Below are positions 10,599 to 25,187 of a DNA stretch of 39,584 bases, piece by piece. The notes under the pieces are model-generated. The model had not been told where the DNA came from. It worked only from the letters and a program-made list of their open reading frames with translations, and made no database searches. Both the position numbers and the translations under genes were made by a program. This stretch comes from a virus. Positions within the stretch are counted from its first letter, which is position 1. Each line of letters starts with the position of its first letter. The stretch spans positions 1 to 39,584 of IMG/VR virus record IMGVR_UViG_3300031251_000059. One strand, given 5' to 3'.

Positions 10599-10858
10599 TG
10601 GACCTGTATACGTGCCCGGTGCTCGATCTCCGCGCGGCCTCGGCCGATCTCGAGGCGTTCGACGCCTGTTATCGCGTCGAGGCGGTCGGCATGACGGCGC
10701 GGTTTGCGCGTATCAGCCTCCCGGCCTCGGGCGGCGTGCTCGAACAGCCGGCGCGCACGTTCGAGGCGATCGGGTTCCTGGCGCGAATCGCTGACGAGGA
10801 ACTCCGCGTGGAACTCGCGAACCGGCGTCGCAGTAACGAGGCGGGGATCGATGGCTGA
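10400..10858 (+). CDS. -1 frame extension of the tail assembly chaperone (gpT-like part), or separate 86-residue gene
   Basis: Read after a -1 slip at 10394-10400, this frame adds 152 residues to the first 182 of the chaperone, giving a 334-residue gpGT-like product. Its codons look used throughout. It contains a cysteine cluster (ADCQRCRDRGLCRDRGCG), then a folded-looking region (VDLYTCPVLDLRAASADLEAFDACYRV and ARIADEELRVEL). In lambda, the T part binds tube subunits while the G part binds the tape measure. The alternative is an independent start at GTG 10598, which overlaps the stop of the short form (TAGTG) and has GAGGGG upstream; this would give only the last 86 residues. Both could operate. 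Confidence 0.65.
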   Translation, partial: SLEVAIRFRAYLGRAGDGTAWRDTGADCQRCRDRGLCRDRGCGAPATDPVFRLELTGGADRGDRPVVDLYTCPVLDLRAASADLEAFDACYRVEAVGMTARFARISLPASGGVLEQPARTFEAIGFLARIADEELRVELANRRRSNEAGIDG

Positions 10859-13800
10859 CGATAAACAGATCACGCTCAAGATCCTCGCCCAGAACGCCGC
10901 GCGCGACGCGTTCCAACAGGTTCGCGACGATGCGAAGGCGGCAGGCCAGGGCGTACAGGATTCGTTCGGCGACGGGATGAAGTCGACGTTCTCGCAGTTC
11001 GAAGCGTTGGCGAAACAAGCCTTCGAAAACCCGGGCGAAGCCGCGAAAAACTTCGCCGAGGGGATCAAGGGCGGTCTGCTGGAATCGCTCACGGGTGCGA
11101 CCGGCGCGATGATCGCCGGCGGCGCCGCGGCTGTGGCGCTGGCCGCCGGCCTGTTCGAACTCGCGAACAAGGCCTCGGAGGTCGGTGAAAACTTACACGA
11201 CATGGAACTCAAAACAGGGATCGGCGTGCCGGCCCTGTCGAACTTGAAAGGCGCGGCCGAACTCGCCGGCGGCACGCTCGATCAAGTCTCGAATGCGATA
11301 TTCAAACTCGAGGCGAACATCGGGTCGGATTCCGCGAAAACGGCCGGCGGCCTGGCGCAGATCGGGCTCTCGCTCGAGGACATCAAATCGCTTTCGCCCG
11401 ATCAACAGTTCCTCGCGATCGCCGACGCGATCAAGCGAACAGAGGACCCGGCGACCCGGGCCGCGGCCGCGGTGGCGATCTTCGGGAAGCAAGGGCGGGA
11501 TCTGCTCCCACTTATGCTCGAACCGCTCGACGATTTGATCCAAAAGTCGCGCGATCTCGGGCTCACGTGGACCGATGAGGAAGCTACGGCGGCGAAAGAA
11601 TTCGAAACGGCGACGCGCGCGCTCAAGCTGGAATTGACGGCGACCGGCACGTCGATCGGGCGCGACCTCACGCCCGCTATGACCGATCTAGTCGCGGCGC
11701 TCGGGTTCGTGGGAGAGAAAACCTCGCTCGTGATCCAGTGGCTCACGCCGCTCGGCCTGGCCTGGAAGGAAACCGCGGCCGAACTCGCGCTATTCAACGC
11801 CGCGGCAGCCGTCTATAACGGAACGGTTGGCGCCGTTCCGACCGTCACGGGTCCGGCGTCGACCTCAGTCAAGGATTGGACGAAAGCGGTACAGGATCGT
11901 GCCGCGGTGCCGCTCGCGCTCGGGCTCGGCGAGGAAAAAACCGCGACACGCGAACTCGACGCACAGATCCAAGCGCACGAGGCCGAGGTTAAGAAAGCCC
12001 AAGCCGAGGAAATCAAGTGGCAAGCCCTGTTACACGAGTTTGCCACGGTCGGCGCGACGGTACAGGACACGATCAACGGGATGGATGGGTCCGTCGTCGA
12101 GGGCACGAAGTACTACCTCGATCACGGCGTCGCCGTCGACAAGATCGCGAAGCTGTACGGGATCACAACGGAACAGGTCAAGGCCGTTCAGACGCAGCTC
12201 GCCTTTACGAATCAGGTCGGCCAGGACACGAACAAAACCTTCAAGGACGCCGCGCCGATTATTGGCCTGATGAATGACCGGTTTGGCGATTCGCACGCGG
12301 CCCTCACCGGATTAGCGAACGACGGGCAGACGCTCACGGCCACGATGATCGGGAACGATTCGGCCGTGTTCAGGTTCGCGAATCAAGAGGCGTACGCGGC
12401 CGAACAGTCGGCCGGGTTGCGATCGGCCCTGGCCGAAGTCAACGCCGAATCGAAGTCGCTCGGCGACGTGCTCGAGGGCACGTTGAAGGGCTCGCTCGGC
12501 GACGTGAACAACCTACTATCGGCCGCGCTCAGTGGCGGCAACGTCGGCCAGGCCGCGAAATCGCTGGCAACGAACCTCGGATCCTCGCTACTCGACGCGA
12601 TCCCGGTTGTCGGCCCGTATATTTCTCAGTTCGCCGGCGCGATCACGTCGGCGCTCTCGAACCTATTCGGCGGGCCCTCGCAGACGGAACTCGACGGCCG
12701 AAAGATCGAGGCCTCGTTCGAACAGGGGTTCGGCGGGTTTCAGGGCATGATGGATCAAGTCGGGGCCGCCTACGCTGCCACGGGTCGATCCGCGCAACAG
12801 GCCCAAGCCGACGTGAAAGCCCTACTCGACGCCGAAAAAGCCGGCGGGCCGGCCGTACAGGCCGTGATCGACCAAATCAACAAGGCCTTTACCGACGAAA
12901 AAACGAACGCCGCGAACGTCGCGACGGGCGTCAACGCGATTGTTACCGCAGTCAAAGCCGTAGGCGCCTCGGCGCCGGCCGCACTACAGGGCATGATCAC
13001 GGCCCTGGAAACATCAACACAACTCACGGCCGACGAAAAAGCGGCGCTCGACGGCCTCGTGCAGAGTGCGACGCCGAACTTCGCGGCGCTGCAACAGACG
13101 GCCGCCAACTATGGGATCTCGCTGGCCGCGTTGGGTCCGAAGTTCCAACAGGCGAACCTCGACGCCTCCGCCAAGACGATTTTTCAGGATTTTACCGACC
13201 TCACGAACGCCGGCGCCGACGTGGGCGGCGTGCTTCAGGGGATGTCCGGCGCGATCTCGCAACTCGTGACCGACTCGATCAAGTTCGGCACGGCGATCCC
13301 GCTCAATATGAAACCCTTGATCGATAACCTCGAGGAATCGGGGCAATTGCTCGACGCCAACGGGCAGCAGATTACAGACATTTCGGGCCTCACGTGGGAG
13401 GACACGCCGCTCGACAAGGGCACGCAAGCGATTGTCAACGCGATCCATGACCTCAATACCACGCTGGCGAACCTGCCAGGCGTGGCGGCGACGGCCGCGG
13501 CCGGGATCGGGTCGGCGCTCACGAGTGCGGCGAACAACGTACCAACGATCCACGTCCCGTACGAGTTTGATCAACAGGGATCGGGCGTGCCGGCGTTCGC
13601 CGACGAGGCGTTCGTGCGGCGGCCGACCCTCGCGATCGTCGGCGACGCGCCCGGCGGCGAATTCGTCTTAAAACCGTCGACCGTGCAGCGGTTGATCGAC
13701 CGCGCGGCAACCCTCGGCGCGTCCGCGGCGCCCGGGATCGATCTATCGGGCCTCGAGGCCGGGATCGCGGGCCTCGGCGATCAACTGGCCGGCCACGTGG

Positions 13801-13877
13801 CGGCGATCTCGCGCATGATGGGCGCGCAACCGTACTTGATTCGCGACGCGATCCTGGCCTCGGGAGGCGGGCGCTAG
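10851..13877 (+). CDS. tape measure protein
   Basis: A 1008-residue protein starting at ATG 10851, overlapping the stop of the chaperone extension, behind GAGGCGGGG. It sets tail length and is ejected with DNA. It shows the usual features: long Ala/Gln/Asp-rich helices, a hydrophobic Gly/Ala segment at about residues 83-105 that could span a membrane, a second one near the middle (around DAIPVVGPYISQFAGAITSALSNLFGG), and a C-terminal part with a short conserved-looking stretch GGEFVLKPSTVQRLIDRA. At about 1.5 angstrom per residue, the tail would be near 150 nm (inference from the general rule). No lytic transglycosylase or peptidase motif is obvious. Confidence 0.9.
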   Translation: MADDKQITLKILAQNAARDAFQQVRDDAKAAGQGVQDSFGDGMKSTFSQFEALAKQAFENPGEAAKNFAEGIKGGLLESLTGATGAMIAGGAAAVALAAGLFELANKASEVGENLHDMELKTGIGVPALSNLKGAAELAGGTLDQVSNAIFKLEANIGSDSAKTAGGLAQIGLSLEDIKSLSPDQQFLAIADAIKRTEDPATRAAAAVAIFGKQGRDLLPLMLEPLDDLIQKSRDLGLTWTDEEATAAKEFETATRALKLELTATGTSIGRDLTPAMTDLVAALGFVGEKTSLVIQWLTPLGLAWKETAAELALFNAAAAVYNGTVGAVPTVTGPASTSVKDWTKAVQDRAAVPLALGLGEEKTATRELDAQIQAHEAEVKKAQAEEIKWQALLHEFATVGATVQDTINGMDGSVVEGTKYYLDHGVAVDKIAKLYGITTEQVKAVQTQLAFTNQVGQDTNKTFKDAAPIIGLMNDRFGDSHAALTGLANDGQTLTATMIGNDSAVFRFANQEAYAAEQSAGLRSALAEVNAESKSLGDVLEGTLKGSLGDVNNLLSAALSGGNVGQAAKSLATNLGSSLLDAIPVVGPYISQFAGAITSALSNLFGGPSQTELDGRKIEASFEQGFGGFQGMMDQVGAAYAATGRSAQQAQADVKALLDAEKAGGPAVQAVIDQINKAFTDEKTNAANVATGVNAIVTAVKAVGASAPAALQGMITALETSTQLTADEKAALDGLVQSATPNFAALQQTAANYGISLAALGPKFQQANLDASAKTIFQDFTDLTNAGADVGGVLQGMSGAISQLVTDSIKFGTAIPLNMKPLIDNLEESGQLLDANGQQITDISGLTWEDTPLDKGTQAIVNAIHDLNTTLANLPGVAATAAAGIGSALTSAANNVPTIHVPYEFDQQGSGVPAFADEAFVRRPTLAIVGDAPGGEFVLKPSTVQRLIDRAATLGASAAPGIDLSGLEAGIAGLGDQLAGHVAAISRMMGAQPYLIRDAILASGGGR

Positions 13878-22191: not shown

Positions 22192-22241
22192 CTCGCCTCC
22201 TAAGCGGGGGGCCGCCGGTTCAATTCCGGCCGGGCGCGCCA
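22192..22241 (+). other. attP core: 3' part of tRNA-Arg(CCU)
   Basis: These 50 bases form the 3' part of a tRNA. The anticodon stem CTCGC/GCGGG surrounds loop CTCCTAA (anticodon CCT at 22199-22201). Then come a five-base variable loop, a T arm GCCGG-TTCAATT-CCGGC (22214-22230), the 3' acceptor strand CGGGCGC, discriminator G and encoded CCA (22239-22241). No matching D arm or 5' acceptor strand (GCGCCCG) is present upstream, so it is not a full gene. A tRNA 3' half beside an integrase gene is the classical attP: after integration it restores the host tRNA. The host target is therefore tRNA-Arg(CCU). Confidence 0.88.
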
Positions 22242-22258
22242 CTCACAACCCCATAAAA

Positions 22259-23581
22259 TCAGACGTTTTCCGGCGATTCTGACATCATCATGCTGCTGTC
22301 GGCATGTACCTCAGATGGTCGCTTCTGGCCCGTCGTGGACGGTTGCGGCGCCGCAATGTTGCCCGTTTCGTTGCCCGGATTGCCCGGTCCGAACCCGGCC
22401 GCGTTCAAGGCCTCGACGGCCGCGCGCATGGCGGGCGCGACGCCGGCCAGGGTGTACCGGTCCGACGTGCGCGGATCGGCGTGCGATCCGAACGCCTGGA
22501 CGATCGACCGATCGGCGACGGCGTACACGGCCGTTAGAAACGAATGGCGCAGATCGTAGGGGCGCACGTCGGCCAGTTGTACCCGGAGGGCGACGCCGGC
22601 CTCGTGGGTCGCCGGATCGTCCTCGAGGCGCCGGCAGTAGCGATCGACGGCCCGACGGAACGCATGATGGGCGCTCGAGGTATTGAACGGCCCGAACGCG
22701 TCGACCGCGGCGAACGCCTCAAGGGCGGCCAGGCCGGCGGCCGTGAGGGGGTGCCGGCGGGGCGGCGCGCCGGCGCCCTTGCGACGCGGGCGCACGAGGA
22801 CCGTACCGCCCTGCCAGTCAATGTCCGCACGCTGTAGGGCGCCGATTTGGGCCGGCGGGATGCCCGTGTAGGCGAGGACCCGCAACCGGGCCGCGGTTTT
22901 CGCCGGCGTGGGGTCGCCCGCCTTGCGGGCGCCTCGGATGATCTTAGACACGGCGGCGTCGGTCACGCCGAACGCCCGCGCCAGGGCCCGTTGCGGCTCA
23001 CCGGCCGCGCACCGGGTACGAATCTGCTCGAGCGCCGCGGCGTCGAGTTTCCCGTGCCGGTGCGTCGCGAACTCGGCCAGGATGCCCTCGATCACGGGAT
23101 AGGGGATCGCGCGTGGCAAGGGCGCCGGTTGACGCGGGCGCGGCACGTCGCGTAACGGGTTCGGCGCGGCGCGCCCGTCGAGTGTCGACCATAAATGATG
23201 CAAGGCCGTGAGGTAATGGCGCACGGTCGACGCCGCGCGGCCCGTGTTCAAGAGATCGGCGACGCCGATCCGAATCTCGACGGCCGTGATTGACCGGCGC
23301 GGCCGTTTCGGGAACCGCGCGATCCAGTACGCCAACTGCACGCGGCGTTCGGCCTCCCGTTTCGGTCGGTCGGCCAGGGTCGCCAGGTAGACCTCGACGT
23401 CGGCGGCCAACGTGCCCGCGGCTGGTTCGTCCACGGTCGCATCGATCCACGCGCGCCAGGTTTCCCGCGGCGTGTCGGCCGGAAACATCTTGGAATACAG
23501 GACGCCGGCGACGCGCACGTACGCCTGGAGGCCGGATCGTTTGCGGCGCACGTTCCCGCGTTCGCGCCGTCGGCGGGCCAT
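22259..23581 (-). CDS. int: tyrosine site-specific integrase with an inserted HTH
   Basis: A 440-residue recombinase that would integrate the phage at tRNA-Arg; its 3' end lies 18 bases from the attP core. The N-terminal part (about 60-135) is a SAM-like core-binding domain. In the catalytic domain I see K268 (RRKG), R345/H346 (YDLRHS), H367 (GSHADP) and nucleophile Y376 (DRYT). The first catalytic arginine is expected at residue 242 of TGIPPAQI, but Pro stands there; I recall phage integrases with similar TG-x-P motifs. Residues about 178-218 hold an extra helix-turn-helix (LDAAALEQIRTRC, GVTDAAVSKIIRG) of the kind found in invertases and HNH endonucleases. The C-terminal 50 residues are low-complexity. 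ATG at 23581; transcription is leftward with the two genes before it. Confidence 0.92.
   Translation of the reverse strand: MARRRRERGNVRRKRSGLQAYVRVAGVLYSKMFPADTPRETWRAWIDATVDEPAAGTLAADVEVYLATLADRPKREAERRVQLAYWIARFPKRPRRSITAVEIRIGVADLLNTGRAASTVRHYLTALHHLWSTLDGRAAPNPLRDVPRPRQPAPLPRAIPYPVIEGILAEFATHRHGKLDAAALEQIRTRCAAGEPQRALARAFGVTDAAVSKIIRGARKAGDPTPAKTAARLRVLAYTGIPPAQIGALQRADIDWQGGTVLVRPRRKGAGAPPRRHPLTAAGLAALEAFAAVDAFGPFNTSSAHHAFRRAVDRYCRRLEDDPATHEAGVALRVQLADVRPYDLRHSFLTAVYAVADRSIVQAFGSHADPRTSDRYTLAGVAPAMRAAVEALNAAGFGPGNPGNETGNIAAPQPSTTGQKRPSEVHADSSMMMSESPENV
22359..22386 (+). repeat. three TTGCCCG repeats in the 3' end of int (possible arm-type sites)
   Basis: TTGCCCG occurs at 22359-22365, 22371-22377 and 22380-22386, same orientation as the two copies at 22129-22147. 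The first two are spaced 12 bases, exactly as on the other side. They fall inside the int C-terminal codons for a Gly-Asn-rich stretch, which could explain them as coding repeats. As arm sites they would give P and P' arms about 50 and 120 bases from the core. Confidence 0.4.
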
Positions 23582-23585
23582 TGGA

Positions 23586-24026
23586 TCACCGGGCCGGGAA
23601 GTCGATCGCCGCGCGACACGGTTCGCCGCGTAACGTGGCGACGATCTCGACCTCGGCGGGTTGCATGGTCAACGCCGACCATCGGGCGCCCGTCGACGTC
23701 TGCAAGCTGTCGACGCCGATCGCGTTGAGGCCACGATCGACCGTCGGCCGCGTGGTTTCATGCGGGCCCGTGGGCGCTGACCGGCCGGCGACGTGCTCGA
23801 ACCCGCGCACGACGATCCGCGCATCCTGCCACGGGACGGCGTCGAGGTTCTCGAGGGCGATCACGCGGCCCGCCACGGCGGCGCGCGCCCGCAATTCGCA
23901 AGTGCCGTCGGTCCGATGCGTGTTTCGCAGGGCCGGAAACGCCCGCACGAGGCCGAACCCGACGGCGGCGGCGCCGACCACCACGATCGCGCCAACCGTG
24001 ACCGCTGACACTCCGCGCGTGCTCAT
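23586..24026 (-). CDS. membrane-anchored protein expressed with the repressor, possible lysogenic conversion or exclusion factor
   Basis: A 146-residue protein starting at ATG 24026. Residues about 8-28 form one membrane segment (AVTVGAIVVVGAAAVGFGLV). The rest is a soluble beta-rich domain with two cysteines (C43, C137) that could form a disulfide if exported. It lies four bases from int and 24 bases from the repressor on the same strand, so it should be made in the lysogen. Single-pass membrane proteins placed there are often superinfection-exclusion or lysogenic-conversion factors, but no family is recognised. Function is inferred only from place and topology. Confidence 0.7.
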   Translation of the reverse strand: MSTRGVSAVTVGAIVVVGAAAVGFGLVRAFPALRNTHRTDGTCELRARAAVAGRVIALENLDAVPWQDARIVVRGFEHVAGRSAPTGPHETTRPTVDRGLNAIGVDSLQTSTGARWSALTMQPAEVEIVATLRGEPCRAAIDFPAR

Positions 24027-24050: not shown

Positions 24051-24569
24051 TCATCGACGAGGCGTTCGACCACGTTTGCGGCTTTTGGCACTCGGGCCCG
24101 TAGCCGCTCGATCTTGTTCGCCAATGACAGCGAGGTTAACGAGGCGCACGGCGAGATCGCCGGCGGCGTCGAGTCGCTCCGTAAGGTCCTTGTTCCGTCG
24201 TTCGAGTGTCTCGAGTTTGCCGAGTAGTTCCTTGATACGAGTCGAAGGGATCGCATCCGTGCCACCTTCCGCGGTTGAGTGTGCCGTACCAAATTGACGG
24301 ATTAGGTCAACCGCTGTCGGTCTATCGGCAAAGAGGGCGGCGAGCGCCTCGTGCAACGTACGTCCGTAGACGAGGCTCAAGGCCAGGAATCGCGAGAGAT
24401 CCGGGTTCCCGCTCCAACCGTATTCCCATCCTCGCAACGTCGCCCCGTCGAACTTGAGGCCCAACTGGCGCACCTGGCGCGCGATTTCCTCGACATCGCG
24501 ATCGCCACGCCAGGCGCGCAGTTGATCGCCGAACGCGCCATAGGTTCGCACCCGTACCCGGTTCGGCAC
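24051..24569 (-). CDS. phage repressor, HTH plus coiled coil
   Basis: A 172-residue DNA-binding protein on the minus strand, starting at GTG 24569 and facing away from the Cro-like gene. Residues about 12-82 form an XRE-like helix-turn-helix domain (FGDQLRAWRGDRDVEEIARQ, then GATLRGWEYGWSGNPDLSRFLALSLVYG). Residues about 108-147 are a coiled coil (RIKELLGKLETLERRNKDLTERL), a probable oligomerisation segment, and the end is basic. There is no S24/LexA-type protease domain, so RecA-driven self-cleavage is not expected. The gene starts about six bases after a putative -10, so its mRNA may be leaderless as for lambda cI from PRM. It probably controls the operators at 24593-24671. Confidence 0.78.
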   Translation of the reverse strand: MPNRVRVRTYGAFGDQLRAWRGDRDVEEIARQVRQLGLKFDGATLRGWEYGWSGNPDLSRFLALSLVYGRTLHEALAALFADRPTAVDLIRQFGTAHSTAEGGTDAIPSTRIKELLGKLETLERRNKDLTERLDAAGDLAVRLVNLAVIGEQDRAATGPSAKSRKRGRTPRR

Positions 24570-24575
24570 GCCTCA

Positions 24576-24605
24576 AATTTACTGCCGTCGGCATTGACAC
24601 GGCAA
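24576..24605 (-). promoter_or_regulatory. leftward promoter for repressor, membrane protein and int
   Basis: On the minus strand TTGCCG (24605-24600) and TAAATT (24581-24576) are separated by 18 bases, fitting a sigma70-type promoter. Transcription would begin at about 24569, the first base of the repressor GTG, so the message would be leaderless. The -35 lies inside operator-like site 1. Visible by sequence only. Confidence 0.55.
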
Positions 24606-24606
24606 C
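24593..24606. promoter_or_regulatory. operator-like site 1
   Basis: ATTGACACGGCAAC, an imperfect palindrome of half-sites RTTGMC with a 2-base centre. It overlaps the -35 of the leftward promoter. The same 14-base pattern recurs 31 and 65 bases further right. Confidence 0.6.
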
Positions 24607-24623
24607 AGGCGACCAAAAAAGAC

Positions 24624-24637
24624 ATTGACGCGGCAAC
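24624..24637. promoter_or_regulatory. operator-like site 2
   Basis: ATTGACGCGGCAAC differs from site 1 at one base. It contains the -35 TTGACG of the rightward promoter. Binding here should block rightward transcription (inference from lambda-type switches). Confidence 0.6.
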
Positions 24638-24654
24638 GCGTCCGATCGTATTGT
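24625..24654 (+). promoter_or_regulatory. rightward early promoter for the Cro-like gene
   Basis: TTGACG (24625-24630) and TATTGT (24649-24654) are 18 bases apart. The start of transcription would be near 24661, three bases before ATG 24664, and no ribosome binding site precedes that ATG. The early message may thus be leaderless or nearly so. Confidence 0.55.
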
Positions 24655-24657
24655 CTC

Positions 24658-24671
24658 GTTGCAATGGCAAC
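24658..24671. promoter_or_regulatory. operator-like site 3, over the Cro-like start codon
   Basis: GTTGCAATGGCAAC is the most symmetrical of the three sites (five of six half-site positions pair). Its centre is the ATG of the Cro-like gene. It begins 34 bases after site 2 and could serve autoregulation by the repressor or the Cro-like protein. Confidence 0.55.
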
Positions 24672-24948
24672 GAACCCACTTCCGCGCGTTCGGTTCAACG
24701 GGCAATTAATGACAGAGGACGCCGCGGCGGCCGGCCTCGATCCGCGGGATCTGGCCGATCGGACGAACGGCGCGATCGCGCATCGGACCGTGTACCGGTT
24801 CCTCGCCAACGACACGCAAACGGTGCGAACGGCGCGCGCACTCGCCGCGGTGCTCGGGTTTCCCGTCGGGCGGTATGTCGTCAACGCCTCACCTGTCAAG
24901 ACCGTAAGCGAAGCGGCCGATCGGTCGGGCGCTGAGGTCGACCGTTGA
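24664..24948 (+). CDS. Cro-like XRE-family regulator
   Basis: A 94-residue protein starting at ATG 24664, within operator-like site 3. It has a helix-turn-helix of the XRE type (about residues 24-68): LDPRDLADRTNGAIAHRTVYRFLANDTQTVRTARALAAVLG. This is the order of helices seen in Cro-like proteins and in small phage repressors. Divergent orientation to the repressor gene and the shared operator region suggest that it opposes the repressor at the lytic decision. The C-terminal 25 residues are polar. It is the first gene of the rightward early transcript and is coupled to the next gene through a TTGA overlap. Confidence 0.75.
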   Translation: MATNPLPRVRFNGQLMTEDAAAAGLDPRDLADRTNGAIAHRTVYRFLANDTQTVRTARALAAVLGFPVGRYVVNASPVKTVSEAADRSGAEVDR

Positions 24949-25187
24949 ACCGCTGGCTTGTGGGCGATCGAATTCCGGCGGTGCTCACGCGTGAAGAACT
25001 CGCCGAGGGCCTCGGCTGGACGTTGCGCCAGGTCGACAACGCGCGGCGCCGTGCACACCCGGCGATCCGGCCAAAGTCGGGCCCGGGTCGCCTATTCGAC
25101 GGAGTCGCGGTTCAACAGTGGATCAACGAACACACGCCGGCCGAAGTGGGGCGGCGATTTTTCGGCGCCGCGCGCCGAACGGGATAG
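24945..25187 (+). CDS. excisionase-like small HTH protein
   Basis: An 80-residue protein starting at TTG 24945, which overlaps the preceding stop as TTGA, with GAGG seven bases upstream; GTG 24960 is an alternative start. Residues about 13-62 match a MerR/AlpA-type winged HTH: VLTREELAEGLGWTLRQVDNARRR, then a wing with KSGPGRLFDGVAVQQWI. Such proteins serve as excisionases or early activators in temperate phages. The gene follows Cro directly, away from int, so it may be xis or a CII-like regulator. The 191 bases after it contain a -10-like element and a hairpin (see below). Confidence 0.65.
   Translation: MNRWLVGDRIPAVLTREELAEGLGWTLRQVDNARRRAHPAIRPKSGPGRLFDGVAVQQWINEHTPAEVGRRFFGAARRTG

Follow-up and report, generated by a model that had tools for sequence, protein, structure and literature searches.

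In the OR region of phage lambda (cI-PRM-OR3/2/1-PR-cro), divergent repressor and Cro genes flank three related operators that overlap two divergent promoters. The lambda operators (17 bp, at 23/24-bp steps) lie within 64 bp, the start codons are 100 bp apart, and the repressor message is leaderless. A cleavable S24/LexA-like repressor domain is typical of lambda, but it is not universal among such switches. In the immB regions of N15 and phiKO2, the corresponding genes are separated by 81 and 80 bp, respectively, with three OR sites in this interval, while in PY54 the cI and cro messages both begin at the AUG, as determined by RACE, and are hence leaderless, and there is a single Cro site (PMC4488713). 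In the Staphylococcus phage phi11, three homologous 15-bp operators are located between divergent cI and cro; CI binds O1 and O2, and Cro binds only O3 (PMC3991615).

We analyzed a virus record of 39,584 nucleotides (IMG/VR IMGVR_UViG_3300031251_000059, positions 1 to 39,584; here, the window). Judging from the sequence, positions 24576 to 24671 very probably form the immunity region of a temperate soil phage, its lysis-lysogeny switch, with divergent promoters and presumed mutual repression; the phage is probably one of Vicinamibacteria (Acidobacteriota). The genes, dyads, promoter matches, and attP on which this reading is built can be read directly from the DNA and are as follows.

22194..22241, plus strand: attP core, 48 bp, identical to the 3' end of the tRNA-Arg(CCU) of several Vicinamibacteria
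22259..23581, minus strand: tyrosine integrase, 440 aa (PF00589, E 2e-8; phrog_1, E 1e-18)
23586..24026, minus strand: 146-aa protein with an N-terminal hydrophobic segment, between repressor and integrase
23660..23673, unstranded: possible fourth operator, GTTGCATGGTCAAC, inside the 146-aa gene and 79 bp before the integrase start
24051..24569, minus strand: putative lysogeny repressor, 172 aa, with a degenerate XRE-type N-terminus, a C-terminal coiled coil, a basic tail, and a GTG start
24576..24605, minus strand: P-rep, predicted promoter, TTGCCG (24605-24600), 18 bp, TAAATT (24581-24576); predicted start 24569
24593..24606, plus strand: O1, operator-like dyad ATTGACACGGCAAC, covering the leftward -35
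24624..24637, plus strand: O2, operator-like dyad ATTGACGCGGCAAC, covering the rightward -35
24625..24654, plus strand: P-cro, predicted promoter, TTGACG (24625-24630), 18 bp, TATTGT (24649-24654); predicted start 24661-24664
24658..24671, plus strand: O3, operator-like dyad GTTGCAATGGCAAC, covering the cro start codon (24664-24666) and the predicted transcription start
24664..24948, plus strand: Cro-like protein, 94 aa, weak HTH_3 match (E 0.008, below the curated cut-off)
24945..25187, plus strand: small excisionase-like/winged-helix-like protein, overlapping the cro stop, with a weak phrog_66 match

As in lambda-type CI/Cro switches, divergent repressor and Cro-like genes are present, the latter with a weak HTH match and the former recognized by alignment to a protein with a clear HTH_3 domain. 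On its own, the repressor had no family match in Pfam, PHROGs, or NCBIfam. It aligned at 32% with a 185-aa Vicinamibacteria protein whose HTH_3 domain is unmistakable (E 1e-10); the pairwise match spans the coiled coil (E 3e-4 as a single comparison), and the alignment places the degenerate XRE domain at the repressor N-terminus. AlphaFold2 models built without an alignment were both too poor for a fold search. Unlike in lambda, no S24/LexA-like peptidase domain was found in the 172-aa repressor with Pfam, PHROGs, or NCBIfam; therefore, lambda-like SOS induction by cleavage is not expected. Between the repressor gene, the gene for the 146-aa protein, and the integrase gene, there are gaps of 24 and 4 bp, and the three probably constitute a single leftward unit. 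The 146-aa protein had no family match in the same three databases; judging by its position and shape, it may act in superinfection exclusion or lysogenic conversion.

Between the two divergent genes, there are three 14-bp dyads of the form RTTGMM-NN-KKCAAY, with a 6-2-6 geometry and symmetric arm positions of 4/6, 4/6, and 5/6. An earlier note on this DNA had placed sites at 24593, 24624, and 24658 and had them overlapping the leftward -35, the rightward -35, and the Cro ATG; all three were recovered there with zero mismatches and with these overlaps, and the exact 14-mers occur nowhere else in the record. De novo repeat finding returned the identical three copies, spaced by 31 and 34 bp. The site cluster is far beyond chance. 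Four exact symmetric matches were observed in the window versus 0.08 expected from 500 dinucleotide shuffles, none of which (0/500) had three sites within 100 bp, and more than one site never appeared in 20,000 shuffles of the region itself. Since the motif had been read off the sites themselves, we added a motif-free three-site score, the sum of shared arms and dyad symmetry, which reached 43 versus a best of 36 among 400 regional shuffles and a best of 42 among 386 other 102-bp stretches of the window. The fourth match, at 23660, codes for LTMQP in the 146-aa gene; one such site has a chance of about 8%, and as an operator it is a possible candidate from its sequence. Two other features touch O2. 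A perfect 6-bp inverted repeat (GACGCG-GCAA-CGCGTC, 24628-24643) overlaps this site only and may either represent a second site, overlapping O2, or have arisen by chance. A terminator-like hairpin spans O2 on the minus strand; it was discounted, as there are four such sites in 4 kb versus three expected.

The three dyads are not equally alike, as O1 and O2 agree at 14 of 15 bases and O3 differs at 4 of 15. This difference, together with the degenerate HTH of the repressor, leaves considerable room for a phage switch in which only one protein uses all three dyads and the other binds one site or elsewhere; we consider this somewhat less probable than its opposite. There are precedents in PY54, with Cro on one site, and in phi11, with the two proteins dividing the operators between them. 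However, the right half-site GGCAAC and the 6-2-6 geometry are common to O1, O2, and O3, which suggests that at least one protein reads them all. This alternative is a variant of the switch proposed here and does not exclude it.

Several related operator-like dyads overlap both predicted promoters, again as in lambda-type switches. With a rough sigma-70 matrix of the E. coli type, P-cro ranked first and P-rep third among all sites on both strands of the 39.6 kb. Both spacers are 18 bp, as the earlier note had it, and the -35 boxes are 19 bp apart. By the usual 7-nt rule, transcription would start at 24569, which coincides with the G of the GTG codon of the repressor, and at 24661, leaving 3 nt ahead of the Cro ATG; the predicted leaders of 0 and 3 nt agree with the note's claim that both predicted transcripts start at or within three bases of the start codon. 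These starts are about 93 bp apart, and the start codons are separated by 94 bp, in keeping with the claim that the whole switch occupies under 100 bases. It is also plain from the DNA that neither the repressor nor the cro start has a usable Shine-Dalgarno (SD) site, a clear one being present in roughly two thirds of 37 inspected genes of the window; the GAGG one base before the repressor GTG is too close to serve. The starts of both genes are SD-less and probably leaderless. In three Acidobacteria genomes, an average of 13.3% of the genes are predicted to be leaderless (PMC3160421), so leaderless starts would be unremarkable there.

Transcription from other promoters further upstream, followed by SD-independent translation, would instead make these starts led. 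Led genes without an SD do exist, and the leftward promoter matches the consensus at only 8/12 positions and was missed by a simple consensus scan, which picked up only the rightward one (9/12). However, the best promoter for each gene puts transcription 0 to 3 nt from the start codon, and an in-frame stop at 24575-24573, two codons upstream of the GTG, excludes a longer repressor, making led starts unlikely. Hardly credible is the notion that the three 14-mers are a by-product of similar -35 boxes plus chance rather than operators, for although both O1 and O2 contain a -35 hexamer, they serve as -35 on opposite strands, O3 has no -35 in use, and the similarity spans the whole 14 to 15 bp and forms a dyad.

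In the divergent repressor/Cro switch that we favor, the leftward promoter would drive a message that begins with GTG and encodes the repressor, the 146-aa protein, and the integrase, and the rightward promoter would drive one that begins with ATG and encodes Cro, the small excisionase-like protein, and the early genes; the two back-to-back promoters would probably not be occupied simultaneously. With repressor bound to O2 and O3, the rightward promoter would be obstructed at its -35 and at its start; occupation of O1 by a protein would obstruct the leftward -35. If lambda and phi11 are a guide, O2 and O3 may be the preferred sites of the repressor and O1 that of Cro, leading to mutual repression; operator binding, these preferences, the transcript ends, and bistability are what we infer from the arrangement. 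A very improbable elaboration follows from the spacing, since each of O1 and O2 is located roughly 31 bp upstream of the nearer predicted start and roughly 62 bp upstream of the farther one: a protein bound there might repress the near promoter and activate the opposite one by a class-I-type contact at about -61.5, with the fourth dyad at 23660 adding direct control of the integrase. If this were true, O1 and O2 would repress and activate symmetrically.

Among the closest described systems is lambda, with which the window shares divergent repressor and Cro genes, three related operator-like sites overlapping two divergent promoters, a similar distance between start codons, and a repressor message predicted to be leaderless. 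It differs in its operators, of 14 bp at 31/34-bp steps, in the dyad on the cro start codon, and in cro also appearing leaderless. The latter property would recall the leaderless switch of PY54, given the predicted leaders of 0 and 3 nt and the missing SD sites. The proteins and operators of PY54, N15, and phiKO2 are unrelated to those of the window, and their prophages are linear plasmids, in contrast to a phage with an integrase and an attP. In the case of phi11, the sequences and host are different, and its binding preferences are known while those of the window are by analogy only.

The 185-aa protein belongs to a prophage-like region of the Vicinamibacteria genome G173 (locus L202) that has the same layout, with the cro-like gene diverging from repressor, membrane protein, orf, and integrase, and in which the repressor coiled coil and the integrase are related to those of the window. 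Its dyads are different, as expected of immunity regions, and its cro-like gene has a possible short leader. Within L202:3600-3800, a palindrome (ATGTTTGC-N6-GCAAACAT) overlaps the cro-like start codon.

Elsewhere, relatives were scarce. No relatives of the repressor, Cro, or integrase turned up in viral contigs or phage records, nor any of the integrase in plasmids. A single-sequence search of 193 Vicinamibacteria genomes found no repressor, a two-row profile of it returned only generic XRE proteins apart from G173, and Cro gave only weak partial matches inside long reading frames. Among 43 records, mostly capsid relatives, the repressor had one weak match, located within a 687-aa frame (E 9e-5), and clusters of the sites were absent; the phages with a related capsid do not have the sites and repressor in common with the window. 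With no close relative found, the operators are without support from conservation. When viral contigs were scanned for two spaced operators, there were five matches, which on reading appear to be coding-sequence repeats (L004, L006 to L008) or a short tandem repeat (L005), with no evident switch. Rfam gave no match.

The integrase adjoins an attP that matches the end of a host tRNA, which shows that the phage is temperate. The attP core lies 17 bp beyond the integrase stop and 1.8 kb from the repressor; this location, outside the repressor gene, does not correspond to integration-dependent immunity of the mycobacteriophage BPs type. A 45-bp core was matched within 3 mismatches in 17 of the 193 Vicinamibacteria genomes (13 of them exactly) and in none of 190 Alphaproteobacteria, and ARAGORN confirmed the tRNA gene in seven of the matching Vicinamibacteria loci. 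Among the matches listed in prokaryote genomes, the highest identity to the capsid (54%) belongs to a Vicinamibacterales relative, and integrase relatives of up to 48% are present in Vicinamibacteria. Considering the attP/tRNA matches and these capsid and integrase relatives, the host is probably a member of the class Vicinamibacteria, phylum Acidobacteriota, and the attP match supplies a probable host class for a virus record that had none. Between its core-binding and catalytic parts, the integrase has some 45 additional residues (roughly 175-222) that form a helix-turn-helix segment, and its Vicinamibacteria relatives align in separate pieces on either side of this segment. ARAGORN also called a tRNA-Arg(ccg) at 13691-13786 (plus strand), inside the tape-measure frame 10704-13877, which is probably a false call.

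The interpretation of the earlier note, a compact divergent repressor/Cro switch with three putative operators, two predicted promoters, and probably leaderless starts that lack an SD, fits the sequence and the gene neighborhood and is supported as the best reading of both. The unusualness that the note implied is not supported, since the short operator regions of lambda, N15, and phiKO2 and the leaderless messages of PY54 came before it. Every property that it named has a precedent, and lambda and PY54 together cover all the features. The switch is a well-formed but ordinary example; the novelty lies in its sequences, including those of the proteins, in an O3 that sits over the cro start codon with steps of 31/34 bp between the dyads, and in a host that is probably one of the Acidobacteria, the principle being known. 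Few if any switches have been studied in phages of Acidobacteria, for which this region gives compact, testable coordinates, and it suggests that the lambda plan of divergent repressor and Cro, three operators, back-to-back promoters, and leaderless starts may operate in an Acidobacteria phage too.
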